From NCBI RefSeq assembly GCF_008087665.1, contig NZ_CP042912.1, forward strand, positions 2,976,001 through 3,040,000: a DNA stretch of 64,000 nucleotides. The letters are read 5' to 3'. Positions 4,514 through 13,901 of this stretch are shown piece by piece. Positions within the stretch are counted from its first letter, which is position 1; each line of letters starts with the position of its first letter. A program made the position numbers and the translations under genes. Source of the stretch: Mariniblastus fucicola (GTDB lineage Bacteria; Planctomycetota; Planctomycetia; Pirellulales; Pirellulaceae). A model generated the notes under the pieces. That model saw only the letters and a list, made by a program, of their open reading frames with translations, was not told the origin of the DNA and searched no databases.

Positions 4514-5842
4514 TTACGGTTTCAGGTTGAAATCCCTGACCAGAATTTCGTGTAGCTCTTCTTCGCTTCCTGGCCGTCCGACGATAGAAGAAAACCCGGG
4601 TGACAACAGAACAGGGATCCGCTCGGCACCACTATCGGCGTAAGCGTTGACGTTTTTTTCGATTAGCTCGTCAATTGAAATGTCGGAGGCCAGAACCGAT
4701 TCCAGATTGGCCGCGTCAACCATCTGTTTGGCCTTGGCCGTTGCCTCCGCGATCGGTCGCGGCGTTTTCGTTTCGAACAGCCACTTGTCAAACTCCAGAA
4801 ATTTTTCTGGTTCGACTTTCCAGACACCCAACGCAAGACGGGCCAGTTTGCATGAATCCAGAAATCGCTTTTTCGTCTCGCCCCAATGCGGGTTGCAGTC
4901 TGAATTCAATGGCATTGGCAACATGACGACCGCGAACTGATCGGGATACTTCTCCATGCCCGAAAGCAAATAGTTGTGCGTGGCTCGGCAATGAGGGCAG
5001 CAATAATCAGCAAGTACCACAATGACGTTTTCAGAATTTGGATCGCCGATCACTGGCACTTTAGATGGAGTGACCTGAAACTTTCCGTCTAGCAGAACGA
5101 TCTTTCGCAAGTCACCTTCGCCTTCAATCGAATCGTTCTCTCCAGCCGCCATTCTTTCAGCTTCAGGGCCTGAAAACTCACCGAAGTATTGGGCACCCAC
5201 CAGGCCCACCAGCATGATGGACGCCAACATTGTCGGTAGCGCGATCTTCTTCGTGCCCACGTTTTTGATTGCTGAACCCAATAGCAGGACGCCAACGGCG
5301 CAACCCAAACCGTGTTCGGTCATGCACCATGGGCAGATGGCCTCCAAGTGAAAAACTTGCAATCCAACGAACCAGGCCGCGGACATGATCAGCACGATTC
5401 CCAGCGTAGTTACAGCCAACCACAGGGCTGAGCGTTGCGACACCGAAGCAAATGAGAAACCGGCTAGGGTTGCCAACACGCCGCCGTAAACGAGCGCGGC
5501 AGGGATGCTGACTGGAATTCCGAACACTTGAGACCAGCGACTGGTAAGTACTTCGGCGCATCCACTGTTCTCTCCACACCCAAGCGGCCGCCCGGATTCG
5601 GCTAATGAAGTTGAGTACAAATATACTGCGACACCGAGCGCGATCGTCGAGAGTAGGAGACAAGTTGTTCTGACCCACGACGCGGGGACATCAATGCTTG
5701 TATCAGAGGCAGGGCCGGATGTAGAAGTGTTCAAATTAAGTGAGCTCCATGAGTTTGCCTGATTTGAATATACTGCATTCGCTGGCGAAGCTCCACAATT
5801 GGAAACTTTATCTATGGAACTCAGGATCGATGCGCCTGTCAA
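4514..5842 (-). CDS. VKOR-DsbA fusion, disulfide-bond forming membrane protein
   Basis: A 442-residue fusion. Residues 55-220 form a vitamin K epoxide reductase-like four-helix membrane domain with the loop cysteine pair C89 and C95 and the quinone-facing CPWC motif at 170-173. Residues 245-440 form a DsbA-like thioredoxin fold with CPHC at 282-285. In bacteria VKOR reoxidises a periplasmic thioredoxin-like oxidant using quinone, replacing DsbB. Here donor and acceptor are one polypeptide, so it should introduce disulfides into exported proteins. An extra cysteine (C281) sits directly before the active site. The 54-residue polar N-terminus is of unknown function; later methionines are possible starts. 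Confidence 0.88.
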   Translation of the reverse strand: MTGASILSSIDKVSNCGASPANAVYSNQANSWSSLNLNTSTSGPASDTSIDVPASWVRTTCLLLSTIALGVAVYLYSTSLAESGRPLGCGENSGCAEVLTSRWSQVFGIPVSIPAALVYGGVLATLAGFSFASVSQRSALWLAVTTLGIVLIMSAAWFVGLQVFHLEAICPWCMTEHGLGCAVGVLLLGSAIKNVGTKKIALPTMLASIMLVGLVGAQYFGEFSGPEAERMAAGENDSIEGEGDLRKIVLLDGKFQVTPSKVPVIGDPNSENVIVVLADYCCPHCRATHNYLLSGMEKYPDQFAVVMLPMPLNSDCNPHWGETKKRFLDSCKLARLALGVWKVEPEKFLEFDKWLFETKTPRPIAEATAKAKQMVDAANLESVLASDISIDELIEKNVNAYADSGAERIPVLLSPGFSSIVGRPGSEEELHEILVRDFNLKP

Positions 5843-6126: not shown

Positions 6127-6849
6127 CTATCCACTGTCTTCCACAATTCGTCCGTCTTCCAGTTTTAAAATGCGGTCAGCGAGATCCAGGATTCGGTTAT
6201 CGTGTGTGACCATCACGGTCGTCGTTCCTCGAACCTCTCCCAGACGCTTGAGCAATTGCACTGTCTTCACCCCTGAATCCTTGTCCAGTGCAGCGGTCGG
6301 TTCGTCCGCGAAGATGATTGACGGGTTCCCTACCAACGCTCGTGCAACGGCGACTCTTTGTTTCTGACCGCCAGACAGCTTCGCAGGCATGTAACTTAGC
6401 CGCTCGCCCAAACCGAGTTGAGTGAGAATGTGAGCTGATGCACGATCAAATTCTTTTCGATTCAATGCCCCGTGCACCTCAAGCCCCATTCGGACATTTT
6501 GCATCGCTGTCAGGCTTTCATGAAGATTGTGGGCTTGAAAGATAAACCCCAGTCTCCGACGCAAACCGTTGAGCTGTCTGTCGGCAGCACCTCGCAACTC
6601 CTGGCCCAACAACTGGACGTGGCCATCCTGGATCTCTCGCAAACAACCGACCAACGTCAACAACGTGGTTTTGCCGGAACCTGATGGCCCCATGAGAATC
6701 GTGAGTTGACCTCGCTTAATTTTTAAGTTGATGTCGAACAACGCCTGAAACCGAGCCTCCCCCAAGCCAAACCAATGGTTCAATCCATCGACGACAATTG
6801 CCGACGTCGTATTCGCAGATCGGGGCTCAAGTTGTGTGTTCGTTTTCAT
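6127..6849 (-). CDS. ABC transporter ATPase, DevA-like
   Basis: A 240-residue ATPase starting at the ATG at 6849; a longer frame to 6918 would run into the permease gene. Walker A is GPSGSGKT (54-61), the signature is LSGGQ (158-162) and Walker B is IIFADEP (178-184), followed by the switch histidine in MVTHD. It belongs to the MacB/LolD/DevA group, which powers FtsX-type permeases that export lipids or peptides across the envelope. It lies 22 bases after the permease gene and completes an adaptor-permease-ATPase set in the order of cyanobacterial devBCA. The substrate cannot be inferred. Confidence 0.88.
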   Translation of the reverse strand: MKTNTQLEPRSANTTSAIVVDGLNHWFGLGEARFQALFDINLKIKRGQLTILMGPSGSGKTTLLTLVGCLREIQDGHVQLLGQELRGAADRQLNGLRRRLGFIFQAHNLHESLTAMQNVRMGLEVHGALNRKEFDRASAHILTQLGLGERLSYMPAKLSGGQKQRVAVARALVGNPSIIFADEPTAALDKDSGVKTVQLLKRLGEVRGTTTVMVTHDNRILDLADRILKLEDGRIVEDSG

Positions 6850-6871
6850 TTGATCTGAACAAAGGCAATAT

Positions 6872-8044
6872 TTAAAAAAGGTCAGCCGGATCTGCGTTCG
6901 CCAGTTTTCGCATCGCAATCATTCCAGACAAAGCACAGCTGCCAACCGTGCCCACAAAAACCGCCGCGGCACGCGCGAGATTCATCGCGATCGGCAATCC
7001 CGTTGCTTCGGCCATGACGGTATAGATGCCGAGTGCGACCAGTAAAGCCGGGATAAAACCAGCGATCGCTAATATGATTGCTTCCTCGAAAATGATGCTG
7101 CGAAAGTACCGCTGGTCATAACCCATTGCCTTGAAGGTGGCATATTCTCGAAGATGATCCGCTACGTCAGTGGATAGGATCTGGTAGACGATCACAATGC
7201 CAACAATGATTCCAATGATGACTCCCATGCCAAAAATCAGCCCGACTGGCCGAACAGTTGTCTGGTATTGGACGTCTTGTTCAATTGCAGCTTCGATGGT
7301 GCGGATTTCCAGCGATTGGGCATTCAGTGCGGTGCGAATACGATCGACGACGATACCCGGATCCTCGCCCTTGCCAATTTTGAGCAGGATGTGATTCGGC
7401 GCACCGGAAAATCGGGCAGGAAAAAGACGCATGAACGTCTGGTCTGACACAACCATAAATCCATCGCCTGAAAACCCGCCGCCAAACGAAACGGTTCCTA
7501 CAACGGCCAGCTGCTGATTGTTGGCTTCTAAAACCAACGGGCTATCAAGAGTCGCTTGCGAAAGCTGCCCCGACTCCATTCCTCGGGCGCGTCGATCAAG
7601 CAACACGTTGTTGGCGAGCTTGAGAGAGTTGACATTGCCGATAGCCGTGCCAATAAATGACTGTCGGGCCGGATCAATTCCAATCGTATTGAATTCAATA
7701 TTGGTTCCGTTGTCGTTTTGCCATTTCGTCATTCCCACAAACAGTGGGCAGGCTTCAGTGACACCGGGCACTCCTAACGCCTGATACATACGACGACTCG
7801 CGACGTTGGAACCGTCCATGATTCCTGTTGCATCCGAAGCCGAAATCATGACGTCTGCTTCGAAACCACTGTAGGTAACACGAATGGCCTCGCTGAATGC
7901 CCCCATCATTCCAAGTTGAACGAAAACCAGAATCCCTGCGAACGCGACACCTGCCGCAGCAGCAGCGAATCTCAACCTGTTGGAAACAAGTTGCAACCAG
8001 CCAAGCGGCAATCGTCCCAATAGACGAGAAAGGATTCTGGTCAC
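6872..8044 (-). CDS. ABC transporter permease, DevC-like (FtsX fold)
   Basis: A 390-residue FtsX-type permease. One membrane helix is near the N-terminus (residues 25-48), then a periplasmic domain of about 200 residues, then three helices from about 270 to 385 (one begins GLIFGMGVIIGIIVGIVIVY). The ADPADLF end and LREYATFKAMGY are typical of DevC proteins. The start is GTG at 8044, overlapping the adaptor stop as GTGA, which implies translational coupling. No TolC-like outer-membrane factor is encoded nearby. Confidence 0.87.
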   Translation of the reverse strand: MTRILSRLLGRLPLGWLQLVSNRLRFAAAAAGVAFAGILVFVQLGMMGAFSEAIRVTYSGFEADVMISASDATGIMDGSNVASRRMYQALGVPGVTEACPLFVGMTKWQNDNGTNIEFNTIGIDPARQSFIGTAIGNVNSLKLANNVLLDRRARGMESGQLSQATLDSPLVLEANNQQLAVVGTVSFGGGFSGDGFMVVSDQTFMRLFPARFSGAPNHILLKIGKGEDPGIVVDRIRTALNAQSLEIRTIEAAIEQDVQYQTTVRPVGLIFGMGVIIGIIVGIVIVYQILSTDVADHLREYATFKAMGYDQRYFRSIIFEEAIILAIAGFIPALLVALGIYTVMAEATGLPIAMNLARAAAVFVGTVGSCALSGMIAMRKLANADPADLF

Positions 8045-9282
8045 TGCGCATCCTCAACAGCGATCCGACCAGTAACCTCAAGATTCGTGAGCCGTGCTGC
8101 ACGTTTCGAGGAATCGGCGTCGAGATTGACCGTTACTCTTATAACACGAGCATCAGTATTGGCTGCCGGGTCATCGCGAATGGTTGTTTGACGCTCAACC
8201 GCAAATCCAATCTCGCTAACAATTCCAAAAAGTGAAGTTGTAAGTGGATCTGCTGAGAGCTCAACGTGTTGACCGACAGCGATAACCCCAATCTCGGACT
8301 GGTAAACCTCCAGTTCAGCCGTCATCCGTTGCACATTGGCAATGTCCAAAATGCCTTTGGTTCCCGGTTTCTCACCGGGGCGAGCGTAGATGTCGAGGAT
8401 CGTTCCGGTGACCGGCGCTGTCACAATGCCTCGAGCCAAATCATGTTTGGCGCGATTCAAGTCGGCGATGGCCGCATCAAGTTTCCGCTTTGCGACGGCC
8501 ACGTCAGGTTGCGTTTCCATTTCCTGTGCTGTGAAACGTGTTACCGTTGCTTCTGCCATGGCAACATCCTTTCGCGATTGCGAAAATTCCGCAGACGCCT
8601 GATCCAGCTCTGACTGAGAGACTGCATTTTGTCCGCGCAAGTTCTTCATGCGTTTGTATTCTTGCAAGGCCAATGCTTCGCCAGCCTTGGCGCGATCAAG
8701 TGCTGCTTGCGCCTCGCCGAGCCCTGCACCAATCGTCATTCGAGTCTGGGCAAGGGCCGTTCGCTGTAGTGCGACATTGGCTTCGGCCGACGCCACAGCA
8801 GATTCGAGACTGGCGCGATTGTCGAGCAGAGCCAGTGTTTCCCCACGTTCAACCCGGCTGCCAATTTCGACTTTGATTTCGTCAATTCGTGCGTCGCCAG
8901 CACCAAATGGCGGCGAGATAGTGATTACTTTGCCCTCCGGAACTAGCCGTCCCAACGCGACGACGGTTCGAATCGTAGCCTGTTCAGGTTCCGATTCTGC
9001 ATCCTGCTCAACGGGAACTGCGATCGGATTACTTGTGCCACCGCCGGGTCGTAGTCCGGTTATTTTCAGGAAGTAACGTAGCGGTGGAGGTTGAACGTAG
9101 ATCCCAATCACTCCTCCTGTGAACAGAAATAAAGGAATGAACGCCAACCAGAAAAATCGGGGAATTCTTCTGCGTCCCTGACGCTGGTTGCTCGTTTGCA
9201 TTTCGTTGTGCTTCACTACGTCGAGAGGCAATTCACTATCCCGGATTTCGGGCTGAGAGTCAGTCTTTTTGCTTGGTTCCAT
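8041..9282 (-). CDS. HlyD-family membrane fusion protein, DevB-like
   Basis: The periplasmic adaptor of the exporter, about 413 residues from the ATG at 9282, which has GGAG six bases upstream; an in-frame ATG at 9351 lacks such a site. A polar N-terminus precedes one membrane helix (FFWLAFIPLFLFTGGVIGIY). Then come half-lipoyl, long alpha-helical hairpin (coiled coil rich in A, Q, E, R) and beta-barrel parts typical of DevB/HlyD adaptors; VVALGRLVPEGKV is the usual DevB entry. Coupled to the permease by GTGA. First gene of a three-gene operon. Confidence 0.87.
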   Translation of the reverse strand: MEPSKKTDSQPEIRDSELPLDVVKHNEMQTSNQRQGRRRIPRFFWLAFIPLFLFTGGVIGIYVQPPPLRYFLKITGLRPGGGTSNPIAVPVEQDAESEPEQATIRTVVALGRLVPEGKVITISPPFGAGDARIDEIKVEIGSRVERGETLALLDNRASLESAVASAEANVALQRTALAQTRMTIGAGLGEAQAALDRAKAGEALALQEYKRMKNLRGQNAVSQSELDQASAEFSQSRKDVAMAEATVTRFTAQEMETQPDVAVAKRKLDAAIADLNRAKHDLARGIVTAPVTGTILDIYARPGEKPGTKGILDIANVQRMTAELEVYQSEIGVIAVGQHVELSADPLTTSLFGIVSEIGFAVERQTTIRDDPAANTDARVIRVTVNLDADSSKRAARLTNLEVTGRIAVEDAQ

Positions 9283-9796
9283 TCTCAACTCCGAACTGAT
9301 TGATGCTGCAGTTCTCGCAGCAAACTTCCGACGCCCATACTTTACTACCATCCAACGCTTACCACGCCGTCAAAATTATGATGCATCGTGGTGAGTAAAT
9401 TGGCTGGAACGGACAGCGGTTTGGCGTGCGAGTTCAGATCCAACAGACAGGCATTGATTCGTTCGGAGAGCGTAAAGCATTTATGACATCAAGGATAGTT
9501 ATCTTGCCTGGTGCGAACGCCGGTTCGTATCCGTCTACAGGGCCGTCGTGGCAGTTTTCCGGGGTCGCAGCGTCCGGATCTCGAAGCGAACTGGCGAAAG
9601 CTTCACTGACCCCGGATACCCCCGGATACGCGTAGGCGAAATGCCGCGAGCGATTGGCTTTTCTGGAGCTGCTCGAAACAGGCATATTTCAATGCATACA
9701 TCTTGTTGCCACGTGCTGTGGTGATGGTGTAACGTAAATATACCGTGTTTCAAAACCGGGGCGAACGCCGATGTGTAAATTCAAGGAGACAGACAA
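9283..9796. other. gene-poor divergent region upstream of the exporter and the VOC-DUF542 gene
   Basis: About 510 bases that must carry promoters for the minus-strand exporter operon and the plus-strand gene at 9797. It contains a tandem pair of CCCCGGATAC (9610-9619 and 9620-9629) and a possible regulator remnant, listed separately. I see no RNA gene. Confidence 0.45.
9434..9700 (-). pseudogene. possible remnant of an Rrf2-family regulator
   Basis: The minus-strand frame ending at 9434 contains GYEPAFAPGKITILDVINAL, close to the GGYxLAxPxxxITLxDVIxAL segment that follows the winged helix in Rrf2 regulators (NsrR, IscR). A few codons upstream, in another frame, MYALKYA resembles an Rrf2 N-terminus. 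The reading frame is broken and the C-terminal part is missing. If right, it is a decayed iron-sulfur or nitric-oxide sensing regulator beside a DUF542 gene, a common pairing. The match is short, so it may be chance. Confidence 0.3.
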
Positions 9797-10375
9797 GTGT
9801 TGGAAGCCCGTCGCACAAATACGATCCTTTACTGCGAGCGTTGGTTGGAAACCGTTCTGTTTTATCGAGAAGCGATTGGATTGCCGGCAAGTTTCGAGAA
9901 CGACTGGTTTGTTGAATTCAAGATTGCTGATTCGTCGTTTCTCAGTATTGCCAACGCTGCCAGAGCGACAATCGAACACGTGCAAGGACAAGGCGTTACG
10001 CTCAGTTGGCAAGTCGAGAATCTGCCGCAAATCAAACGCCAGCTTGATTCGCGAGAAATCCAAACTGCCGGGATCAAGCCGAGGTGGAACAGCAATGTGC
10101 TCTATTTCCACGACCCTGAAGGTCATCGAATCGAGCTTTGGGAACCGTTTCCCGAATGTTGTAATTTGGACGCCAGCATCAACTGTGACTTGGCAACCAG
10201 CGTGCCCGATTGGTTAATCGAGTACCCGATATTGTTAGCTTTGTTTCAAAAGATGGGCATCGACTATTGCTGTGGTGGCAAGTCACTGGAGACAGCGTGT
10301 TTAAAGCAGGGGCTTGACCCAACCGATGTCCTACAACAAGCCAGCGATTCGATCAGGACGTTGCGTAAAAGTTGA
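9797..10375 (+). CDS. VOC (glyoxalase-like) domain fused to DUF542/ScdA N-terminal domain
   Basis: A 192-residue fusion with a GTG start at 9797 and AAGGAG at 9783-9788. Residues 1-118 look like a vicinal-oxygen-chelate fold, with FYREAIGLP near the start and YFHDPEGHRIELWEP at 103-117. Residues 127-190 match DUF542, the N-terminal domain of RIC/YtfE/ScdA di-iron proteins, with the hallmark DYCCGG at 156-161 followed by KSLETAC. DUF542 carries redox-active cysteines used in iron-sulfur repair or nitric-oxide response. The usual di-iron hemerythrin-like domain is absent and a VOC domain stands in front instead. It appears to be monocistronic. Confidence 0.75.
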   Translation: MLEARRTNTILYCERWLETVLFYREAIGLPASFENDWFVEFKIADSSFLSIANAARATIEHVQGQGVTLSWQVENLPQIKRQLDSREIQTAGIKPRWNSNVLYFHDPEGHRIELWEPFPECCNLDASINCDLATSVPDWLIEYPILLALFQKMGIDYCCGGKSLETACLKQGLDPTDVLQQASDSIRTLRKS

Positions 10376-12119: not shown

Positions 12120-12567
12120 TTCGGTATTTAGTCAGTGTAGCCATTTTCGCCTGAACTTCCCGGGTGTGGACGATAAGAACTGGCGAGCTTGGATCAATCT
12201 CGACAAGGGAGTGGATGGATCCACGCAATTGGAAAAGCGGCCGTTCGAATTATGGCCTTTAAGACGTGCACTTTGTCTGGGCGGTTACGGTAGTGGCGCG
12301 CCTCCCATCCGCACAGCGGCAACCTGTTTGCCTGTCGTTCACGCAGGAGGTGTAAGCAGAATGACAATTCAGAAAACAATATTCACTCAGTTCGCAAAAT
12401 GCTTGCGAACAAAGACTGTTGCGGTGCATTGGCCTGTTGCCTCAAGTCATAGGTTTGGGCCGGCACTTGCTCTGTTCATTCATTCAACCGGTCGATGATT
12501 CATGAAAGCATATAAATTGGCGGCCGGTATTGAAACCTAAAATTTAACTTTGTCAAAAGTGAGCACC
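12120..12567. other. intergenic region with one possible small ORF
   Basis: About 450 bases between the coiled-coil gene and the lipoprotein gene. The only point of note is a consensus AGGAGG at 12345-12350, upstream of a 45-codon frame listed separately. The remaining frames have no support. Confidence 0.45.
12361..12498 (+). CDS. possible small protein, 45 residues
   Basis: ATG at 12361, preceded by a perfect AGGAGG about 10 bases upstream, opens a 45-codon frame (MTIQKTIFTQFAKCLRTKTV...). It is basic, with no membrane segment or known motif. Codons 11-17 lie on an inverted repeat TTCGCAA-AATGC-TTGCGAA. The ribosome-binding site is the only real support, so this may be spurious. Confidence 0.25.
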   Translation: MTIQKTIFTQFAKCLRTKTVAVHWPVASSHRFGPALALFIHSTGR

Positions 12568-13344
12568 ATGTACAAATTCAAGATGATTCCAGGCCTGTTC
12601 TTGATTTCGATATTGGGACTTTCTGGTTGTGGGCCATCCACGACCGAAAGCGATCAGCAAACCGAGTCTTCACACAATCCCGACATCATTCAATATGGTT
12701 CGATGCGCGAAGCGATCGGTGATCAGCAGGACCAGGGTCGAGTCCGGTTTGCAGAACTGGTTAAACAGCCGCACTGTTATGCCGTGGCCGCACTGGAAGG
12801 ATTAAAGGGTGAAGCCGCTATTGTTGATGGCGAATTGACCGTCTCGATTGTAGATGATCAAGGTCAATTGAAATCTGTTGTCGAAGATGCTGATCAACTG
12901 CAAGCAACCATGCTGGCTGGCAGTTATGTCAACCAATGGCACGATATCGCGGTAGAACAGGATGTCGCGGCCGAAGAATTTGACAAGTTTCTGGCAGAAT
13001 CGGCGGAGGCGTCAGGTGTGAGTACTGACAAGCCATTCCTGTTTACAGTGGAAGGGGATTTCAGCGACCTGCACCTGCACGTAATTAACGGGGCGTGCCC
13101 TGTTCATGCTCGGATGCAACAACAGGTGCTGCCGGCTGAAGTGAAACCGTTCGAGCAAGCCATGCCGAAAATATCCGGAACGCTGGTAGGCATTTATGCA
13201 CGGGATGCAGTCGGAAAACTGACACAGCCTGCGACGGAAACACATCGTCATTTTGTCTATGAAGACGATTCGAACCAGAAGCAAGTTGGTCATGTTGAAA
13301 AGGGTGGAATCTTAAAAGGAGCAACGTTACGAATCGCCAATTAG
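12568..13344 (+). CDS. acetolactate decarboxylase-like lipoprotein
   Basis: A 258-residue protein from the ATG at 12568. The signal peptide ends in the lipobox LSGC (C21), so it is probably anchored in a membrane on the periplasmic side. The body resembles alpha-acetolactate decarboxylase (BudA/AlsD): AALEGLKGEAAIVDGELTVS near residues 73-92 matches the family's glycine-rich hairpin. The C-terminal part contains ISGTLVGIYA, then THRHF and GHVEKG, placed like the zinc-binding HxH...H set. Known decarboxylases are cytosolic or secreted without lipid, so lipidation is odd. The substrate may differ. No acetolactate synthase is nearby. Confidence 0.6.
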   Translation: MYKFKMIPGLFLISILGLSGCGPSTTESDQQTESSHNPDIIQYGSMREAIGDQQDQGRVRFAELVKQPHCYAVAALEGLKGEAAIVDGELTVSIVDDQGQLKSVVEDADQLQATMLAGSYVNQWHDIAVEQDVAAEEFDKFLAESAEASGVSTDKPFLFTVEGDFSDLHLHVINGACPVHARMQQQVLPAEVKPFEQAMPKISGTLVGIYARDAVGKLTQPATETHRHFVYEDDSNQKQVGHVEKGGILKGATLRIAN

Positions 13345-13356
13345 TCGCCTTCAACC

Positions 13357-13761
13357 TCAGCCAAGCTGACTTACTCGCGGAGGATGATAGAGCATTTGAA
13401 TCAAGGTTCCGTCTGGATCGCGAACAAAGAAACTTCTTGATCCGTCGCGATGCGTTTTGGGCTTTCGTTCAATAGCAATGTCTGCCTGTTTCATGAAGTC
13501 GTGCCAGCGATCGACCTCTGCAGCGTTCGAAACGAAAAATCCAATGTGGTCGAGTCGTGTTTCTGACTCATCGTTTTCGACGTCAGTTCTTCGTTGTAAC
13601 GCGAAATTGTCATCGCCGGAAGTAAGAAATACATTGTCGGCGTCCGGTTGCCATTCAACCTGCATGCCGAGCACCTCGGTATAGAAAGTCAGCGTCGCGT
13701 CGAAATTGCTAAAGTTCAGCGAGACGTGTCGCATTCCGGTTATTGTCGGTCGTTCGCTCAT
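13357..13761 (-). CDS. VOC family protein (glyoxalase/dioxygenase fold)
   Basis: A 134-residue single VOC domain pair from the ATG at 13761, with GGAGAG upstream. Conserved elements are GMRHVSLNFSNFDATLTFYT near the N-terminus, LDHIGFFV at mid-length and FFVRDPDGTLIQMLY near the end. Candidate metal ligands are the H of MRHVSL, the H of LDHIGF and later acidic residues. The reaction cannot be assigned; related proteins are called glyoxalase or lactoylglutathione lyase-like. It converges on the lipoprotein gene with only 12 bases between. Confidence 0.8.
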   Translation of the reverse strand: MSERPTITGMRHVSLNFSNFDATLTFYTEVLGMQVEWQPDADNVFLTSGDDNFALQRRTDVENDESETRLDHIGFFVSNAAEVDRWHDFMKQADIAIERKPKTHRDGSRSFFVRDPDGTLIQMLYHPPRVSQLG

Positions 13762-13901
13762 GGAATCTCTCCAAGTAAGCTGCAAATTGGTTGAGCCAGT
13801 GGTTCCGTGGCCTAAGCGGTCGAATGGGTGTCAACGACATCTTTCAAAATAGAGCACCGTGATTTCCCCCCAGCAGATTTCAACACCGTTTTGAAAGTTC
13901 T

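Follow-up and report, generated by a model that had tools for sequence, protein, structure and literature searches.

Can a ScdA_N domain (DUF542), which Pfam still labels a domain of unknown function, work with a partner other than the di-iron domain that accompanies it in RIC/YtfE/ScdA proteins? The question is raised by a gene of Mariniblastus fucicola at positions 9797–10375 (+) of the window, the 64,000-nucleotide stretch of contig NZ_CP042912.1 that we analyzed. An earlier note on this DNA had described the product as a VOC domain followed by DUF542 with the di-iron domain missing, and had proposed that the DUF542 cysteines might serve an oxygen-chelate enzyme. A ScdA_N domain joined to a non-di-iron partner suggests a portable module and names a partner family that can be tested, and the fusion hints that a little-studied VOC family may be involved in how bacteria respond to nitric oxide (NO).

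Domain architecture of the fusion

The gene is a single open frame of 192 codons with a GTG start and a TGA stop; read directly, the sequence has a Shine-Dalgarno-like AAGGAG (9783–9788, +) 8 nt 5' of the start. Residues 1–118 (9797–10150, +) form the VOC half, residues 119–126 (10151–10174, +) a linker that includes C121-C122, and residues 127–192 (10175–10372, +) the ScdA_N half, with DYCCGG at residues 156–161 and KSLETAC at residues 162–168. In Pfam searches, ScdA_N (PF04405) matched residues 135–181 above its cut-off (44.8 versus 32.5 bits) and Glyoxalase_2 (PF12681) matched residues 9–117 below its cut-off (24.8 versus 30.1 bits). The RIC/YtfE/ScdA model TIGR03652 gave 32.4 bits against a cut-off of 204.7, and Pfam found no hemerythrin match in the frame, which ends after ScdA_N. 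Between 9300 and 11100, a promoter scan and an Rfam search at gathering scores returned no match. FNR/Dnr-type boxes (TTGA-N6-TCAA) occur three times in the window against 2.3 expected, none of them upstream of the fusion gene. A terminator-like stem at the seam (10137–10156) was set aside because 2.7 are expected by chance.

The VOC assignment rests on a structural model with block-mean pLDDT values of 73–97 across residues 1–120. Its VIA-align Z scores reached 15.3 (3ghj) and 15.2 (TnmS3, 5w27), and most of the Foldseek matches listed for it bear glyoxalase, bleomycin-resistance or FosA names. Model and structural matches thus agree on the VOC fold, a paired beta-alpha-beta-beta-beta barrel, over residues 1–118, and the 59% identical relative L003 scores above the cut-off of two glyoxalase models. 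The metal positions, which we assigned by sequence from the His/His/Glu motif of metallo-VOC enzymes and not from a bound structure, are presumably N8, T68 and E113. N8 and T68 are each present in 35 of 39 VOC family rows, E113 in 38 and a further family-conserved residue, C13, in 34; among these rows are the remote sequences L103–L105, L002, whose N-terminus is cut, and L115, which is extended by a long N-terminal segment. The His/His/Glu triad is therefore absent family-wide, also from stand-alone VOC proteins, and only the E113 position is kept. Stand-alone members (Desulfosarcina ovata Do28_1, L003, L005, Brocadia) are about 45–59% identical to the VOC half and share its N/T/E pattern, yet have no ScdA_N attached. 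VOC proteins are generally dimeric. Ligand-binding ones such as TnmS3 and the bleomycin-binding proteins, which are not known to carry a metal, share the fold of the VOC half (Z of about 13–15) at less than 20% identity. With N8 and T68 at metal positions, we infer that the VOC family resembles binding proteins more closely than classical metalloenzymes.

For linker residues 122–136 pLDDT falls below 50, and at values near 45 the model does not predict how the two domains pack. Modelled alone, ScdA_N reached a mean pLDDT of 62 and gave no PDB match below E 0.001, so that this model tells nothing about its fold; all it shows is a helix order, with the motif separating helices 2 and 3, that is consistent with the YtfE domain described in PMC9268430. 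Among 36 free-standing ScdA_N rows (four of 40 ORFs, being at least 140 aa long, were excluded), Cys occupies the position of C130 (10184–10186, +) in 32, that of C159 in all 36 and that of C168 (10298–10300, +) in 35. The fusion carries the vicinal pair C158-C159 of DYCCGG (10268–10273, +), but position 158 is Ser in 24 rows, Cys in six, His in four, Asn in one and Gly in one, so the pair is not a conserved feature of the free-standing family. Retention of C159, C168 and C130 alongside Ser-Cys at 158–159 suggests a three-Cys arrangement rather than a vicinal disulfide. The vicinal pair of YtfE, according to PMC9052748, readily forms a disulfide and under some conditions helps to deliver electrons to the di-iron site.

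The ScdA_N half is closest to free-standing proteins of 65–130 aa. In a BLAST comparison against the ORFs of the fetched loci, the closest was the free-standing L043 (70.6% identity over 51 aa), and two RIC-length ORFs in the same comparison reached 40% and 47%; in the family genomes, the best nine matches were short frames of 68–132 aa. As the nearest relatives are free-standing and RIC-length ORFs more distant, the absence of the di-iron domain does not reflect a recent loss. Hence the proposed order of VOC domain and DUF542 is borne out by the Pfam match and the modelled fold, and the di-iron domain is indeed absent from the protein, but derivation from a RIC ancestor is not supported. Judged by its sequence, the protein is a fusion of a VOC protein lacking the classical metal triad with an NsrS-type free-standing ScdA_N, two parts that are normally separate.

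Seam, history and rarity

BLAST of the fusion protein splits its relatives into two sets, with VOC relatives confined to residues 1–117 and most ScdA_N relatives starting at residues 125–131. At the seam, codons 127–128 (AGC ATC, 10175–10180, +), 35 of the 36 free-standing ScdA_N relatives have Met: at residue 128 in 25, at 127 in nine and at both in one, with neither in the last. This Met is the first ORF residue in 21 rows; the other 15 ORFs, which were listed mechanically, begin further upstream, so that there it is only possibly the start. On the other side, VOC relatives end 1–10 residues past the W115 column in 35 of 39 rows and 13–16 residues past it in four. The simplest history of the fusion would be the loss of a stop and a start between adjacent genes. 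It would have begun with a VOC gene followed immediately by the gene of a free-standing ScdA_N protein; loss of the VOC stop and the ScdA_N start would have created the read-through frame, and a few linker residues may derive from the former intergenic spacer. The planctomycete free-standing proteins L043 and L031, the nearest sequences, share the start point and C130/C159/C168 with the fusion; they differ in being unfused and in usually having Ser at position 158.

In a phylogenetic tree, the window VOC sequence groups with L002, from an Actinomycetes-titled MAG (100/80), and with L003 (99/74), apart from the f46 and f95 sequences, which belong to its own phylum. This tree was computed without L103–L105, with L115 trimmed to its last 120 aa, with L118 added and with L002 taken from its match without a start codon. 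Because the grouping lies outside its own phylum, the VOC gene was likely acquired horizontally.

Searches for other proteins with the same domain order recovered no second fusion. No frame open over both halves was found in 391 other genomes of the phylum, and none in 27 other genomes of the genus or 198 others of the family, three sets that overlap; the fusion was also absent from 350 and 345 genomes of the phyla to which L003 (a Caldilineales-titled MAG) and L005 (a Desulfobacteraceae-titled MAG), respectively, belong. At E 1e-5 the VOC half matched none of 240 other family genomes, and weak, remote VOC-type matches at E 1e-5 to 1e-3 came from three (G512, G541, G481). No stretch of the viral contigs matched the fusion. 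Six plasmid records matched, mainly to the VOC half and none over 80% of the query; these VOC relatives are annotated 'VOC family protein'. Four alignments that run across both halves but contain stop codons were rejected as fusions: G258 and G1234 have a stop after the VOC domain and no ScdA_N beyond it, in G948 a remote VOC is followed by stops and no ScdA_N, and in G194 the ScdA_N is free-standing behind a stop. That ScdA_N (L215 899–1713) adjoins an Rrf2-like ORF; the locus lies outside the neighbourhood counts given below.

ScdA_N without a di-iron domain is already known from Thermus. According to PMC5748679, NsrS, described in 2017, is a free-standing ScdA_N form of 65 aa whose gene stands between nsrR and a cupin gene in the nic denitrification cluster; it is co-encoded with NsrT, and the two have been proposed to act together in repairing the iron-sulfur centre of NsrR. 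One plasmid record shows a similar gene order. NsrS of Thermus thermophilus and the fusion both lack a hemerythrin domain, carry the CCGG motif and have a small barrel-type companion. The companion of NsrS is the separate cupin NsrT, whereas that of the fusion is a covalently joined VOC domain, and nsrS belongs to a denitrification cluster, whereas the window gene lies outside any. The ScdA_N half fits the NsrS-type short form, yet is joined to VOC. RIC/YtfE/ScdA proteins share with the fusion a ScdA_N domain with a CC pair, but in them it is N-terminal and combined with hemerythrin, while in the fusion it is C-terminal. In the open-licence literature we found no description of a VOC-ScdA_N fusion or of an NO role of this VOC family.

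Gene neighbourhoods of the two families

In other genomes, ScdA_N firmly accompanies genes that detoxify or sense NO. An NsrR-like Rrf2 gene lies within 1.5 kb of free-standing ScdA_N in 12 of 35 loci (one cut by the stretch end), several of which come from one genus or from close kin, so that the rows are not independent. Among stretches of 8–16 kb, Rrf2 occurs in 6 of 14 ScdA_N loci and in none of 20 control stretches drawn from 13 of the same 14 genomes (Fisher p 0.002). Scored against specific regulator models, the ScdA_N-adjacent Rrf2 protein matches NsrR best, at 101 bits and below the cut-off of 182. A qNOR homologue stands directly upstream in two of the 35 loci, L036, where the genes overlap, and L063, where it is a COX1-family protein. 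The arrangement of a qNOR homologue followed by free-standing ScdA_N, with an overlap or about ten bases between them, was seen in L081 (5810–8249, G266) and L063 (2–1716, G531). Cupin genes occur near ScdA_N in L047 and L075; in the latter (7802–9342, G459) two ScdA_N-type ORFs close together with a cupin gene echo Thermus nsrS-nsrT. In L068 (11941–13731, G421), a 596-aa protein with a weak, below-cut-off match to NnrS is encoded about 4 kb away from the closest relative of the window ScdA_N half. The connection of DUF542 with NO, which the earlier note had drawn from RIC/YtfE proteins, in which DUF542 is paired with hemerythrin and which relieve nitric-oxide and oxidative damage, holds without the RIC derivation.

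The VOC family also accompanies genes that detoxify or sense NO in other genomes, more weakly than ScdA_N does. On a Desulfosarcina ovata plasmid (L118 854–10946; NZ_AP021877.1, Do28_1, typed mobilizable), norR, qNOR, hemerythrin, cupin and VOC genes follow in this order; the set adjoins HicAB toxin-antitoxin genes, a Tn3-family transposase and an integrase. In L005, genes for Hcp, a flavodiiron protein and VOC stand in order, with a 2-base gap before VOC. In L142 and L148 a flavodiiron gene is no more than 0.5 kb from VOC and a cupin gene is nearby, and Hcp lies 5.5 and 3.4 kb from VOC in L137 and L143. Hcp, flavodiiron or qNOR genes occur in 6 of 42 VOC loci and in none of 40 controls (p 0.015), or in 6 of 16 against 0 of 19 for the Desulfobacterota-type subset (p 0.005), with markers that were chosen after some loci had been viewed. 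Without L005, L118 and L142, which had supplied the markers, the full set falls to 3 of 39 loci (0 of 40 controls, p 0.12) and the Desulfobacterota-type subset to 3 of 13 (0 of 19 controls, p 0.058). The rows are partly kin, the flavodiiron protein of L148 being 91% identical to that of L142, and are not independent. In 36 of the 42 loci none of the three markers is present, and none of the 18 f46 and f95 loci carries one (f46 includes Brocadia genomes).

The VOC loci span 4.7–16.8 kb each, and the 40 controls, two of which are short (3 and 8 kb), come from 26 of the genomes. The count excludes the duplicates L006–L008, L131 and L138 and the contig-end-cut L009, and the locus set leaves out weaker VOC matches from the phylum searches. 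NorR, Crp/Fnr and hemerythrin did not enter the strict count, since some controls contain them as well (two, one and one of 40, respectively); VOC, Crp/Fnr and hemerythrin genes stand in a row in the Chloroflexota-type loci L132 (by Pfam), L133 and L135 (by BLAST). Molybdopterin oxidoreductase (6 of 42 loci against 0 of 40 controls, five of them at only 24–34% identity) was not used as a marker, and the 'NnrSlike' label of one VOC-locus protein was given by eye, Pfam showing no match for it. In one f46 genome (L085 4352–8516, G122), a DMSO-reductase-family molybdopterin enzyme of 1167 aa is encoded divergently from the VOC gene. In Bradyrhizobium, PMC6710368 assigns a VOC gene to the NnrR regulon.

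In its own genome, which is 95% complete, the fusion gene is the sole ScdA_N, and PF01814 (hemerythrin) has no match. A qNOR homologue was not found by a search that gave matches in two other genomes, and an NsrR-like Rrf2 gene was not found by a search run without a positive control. Inspection, partly by eye, showed no NsrR-like regulator or NO reductase beside 9797–10375. On the opposite strand lies a set of ABC transporter genes (6127–9351; 6127–6915 by Pfam, otherwise assigned by eye), and the remaining neighbours show no evident connection with NO. With no NO gene at the window locus, the link to NO comes from the relatives.

Possible roles and competing explanations

We favor the reading that the protein is a functional fusion of two NO-response modules, acting as a cytoplasmic accessory under NO or nitrosative stress, and put its probability at roughly 0.47; the recount without L005, L118 and L142 lowered it from an even chance to slightly below. 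The ScdA_N thiols (C159, C168 and C130, with C158) would be the redox-active or NO-reacting part, comparable to Cys30/31 of YtfE. The VOC barrel, probably dimeric, would replace the di-iron domain as a binding or docking part that holds a small molecule or client instead of an iron site, and the target of the fusion would be another protein or a small-molecule pool, without the activity of a di-iron nitrite reductase. Counting against this reading, a single known fusion provides no evidence of selection. A broader proposal is more doubtful, and we make it tentatively: the VOC family marked by N-T-x-L-Y-C-x-x-W (N8, C13, W16) with T68 and E113 might be an unrecognised NO-detoxification component that partners ScdA_N-type thiol proteins, with the barrel substituting for the di-iron domain. 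If the family does belong to NO defence, entries now named only 'VOC family protein' in the genomes of Brocadia, of sulfate reducers and of the Chloroflexota type would acquire a function.

The main rival is a neutral accident in which adjacent genes lost stop and start and the halves work or decay on their own. Occurrence in one genome only and the low-confidence linker agree with it, and a change of ATG to ATC at codon 128 would be enough to remove the ScdA_N start. We nevertheless consider it rather unlikely, as N8, C13, T68, E113, C130, C159 and C168 have all been kept and relatives of both halves stand beside NO genes, as a functional fusion would predict. A sequencing or assembly artefact joining two adjacent genes would account for the lack of a second copy in the collections searched; it appears highly improbable because an error would have to hide both the VOC stop and the ScdA_N start Met (AGC ATC). 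One frame is open through both halves, whose GC contents (0.50 and 0.49) fall within the range of neighbouring genes (0.48–0.56). Neither result that the earlier note had named as refuting its view came about: residues 1–118 model as a VOC fold, and in the assembled sequence we found no sign of an artefact.

Two further readings concern what the VOC half does. In an NsrS-like iron-repair protein it would take the role proposed for the Thermus cupin NsrT, a reading favored by the co-encoded NsrS and NsrT, for which joint repair was proposed (PMC5748679), and by cupin genes near VOC in L118, L142 and L148 and near ScdA_N as noted above. It is unlikely, given a VOC half with no evident metal site, a genome in which no hemerythrin domain was found, and an NsrR-like regulator that a search run without a positive control did not find there. 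The idea that the ScdA_N cysteines complete the metal site of a metallo-VOC enzyme, close to what the earlier note had inferred, has very little chance of being right: the structural matches do include the metalloenzymes FosA and glyoxalase I, and E113 and Cys13 are widely kept, but N8 and T68 fill the other metal positions even in stand-alone VOC proteins, and drug-binding TnmS3 and bleomycin-binding proteins are among the same matches. The proposed service of the cysteines to an oxygen-chelate enzyme accordingly gained no support.

Elsewhere in the window, a second VOC (glyoxalase) gene (13357–13785, −) lies 3 kb from the fusion gene; its product is 19% identical and has His at the first metal position. 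The frame at 12550–13344 (+) encodes a 264-aa protein with an above-cut-off match to alpha-acetolactate decarboxylase (PF03306), and that at 4514–5842 (−) encodes 442 aa resembling, by eye, a fusion of a vitamin K epoxide reductase domain with a DsbA-like thioredoxin domain.
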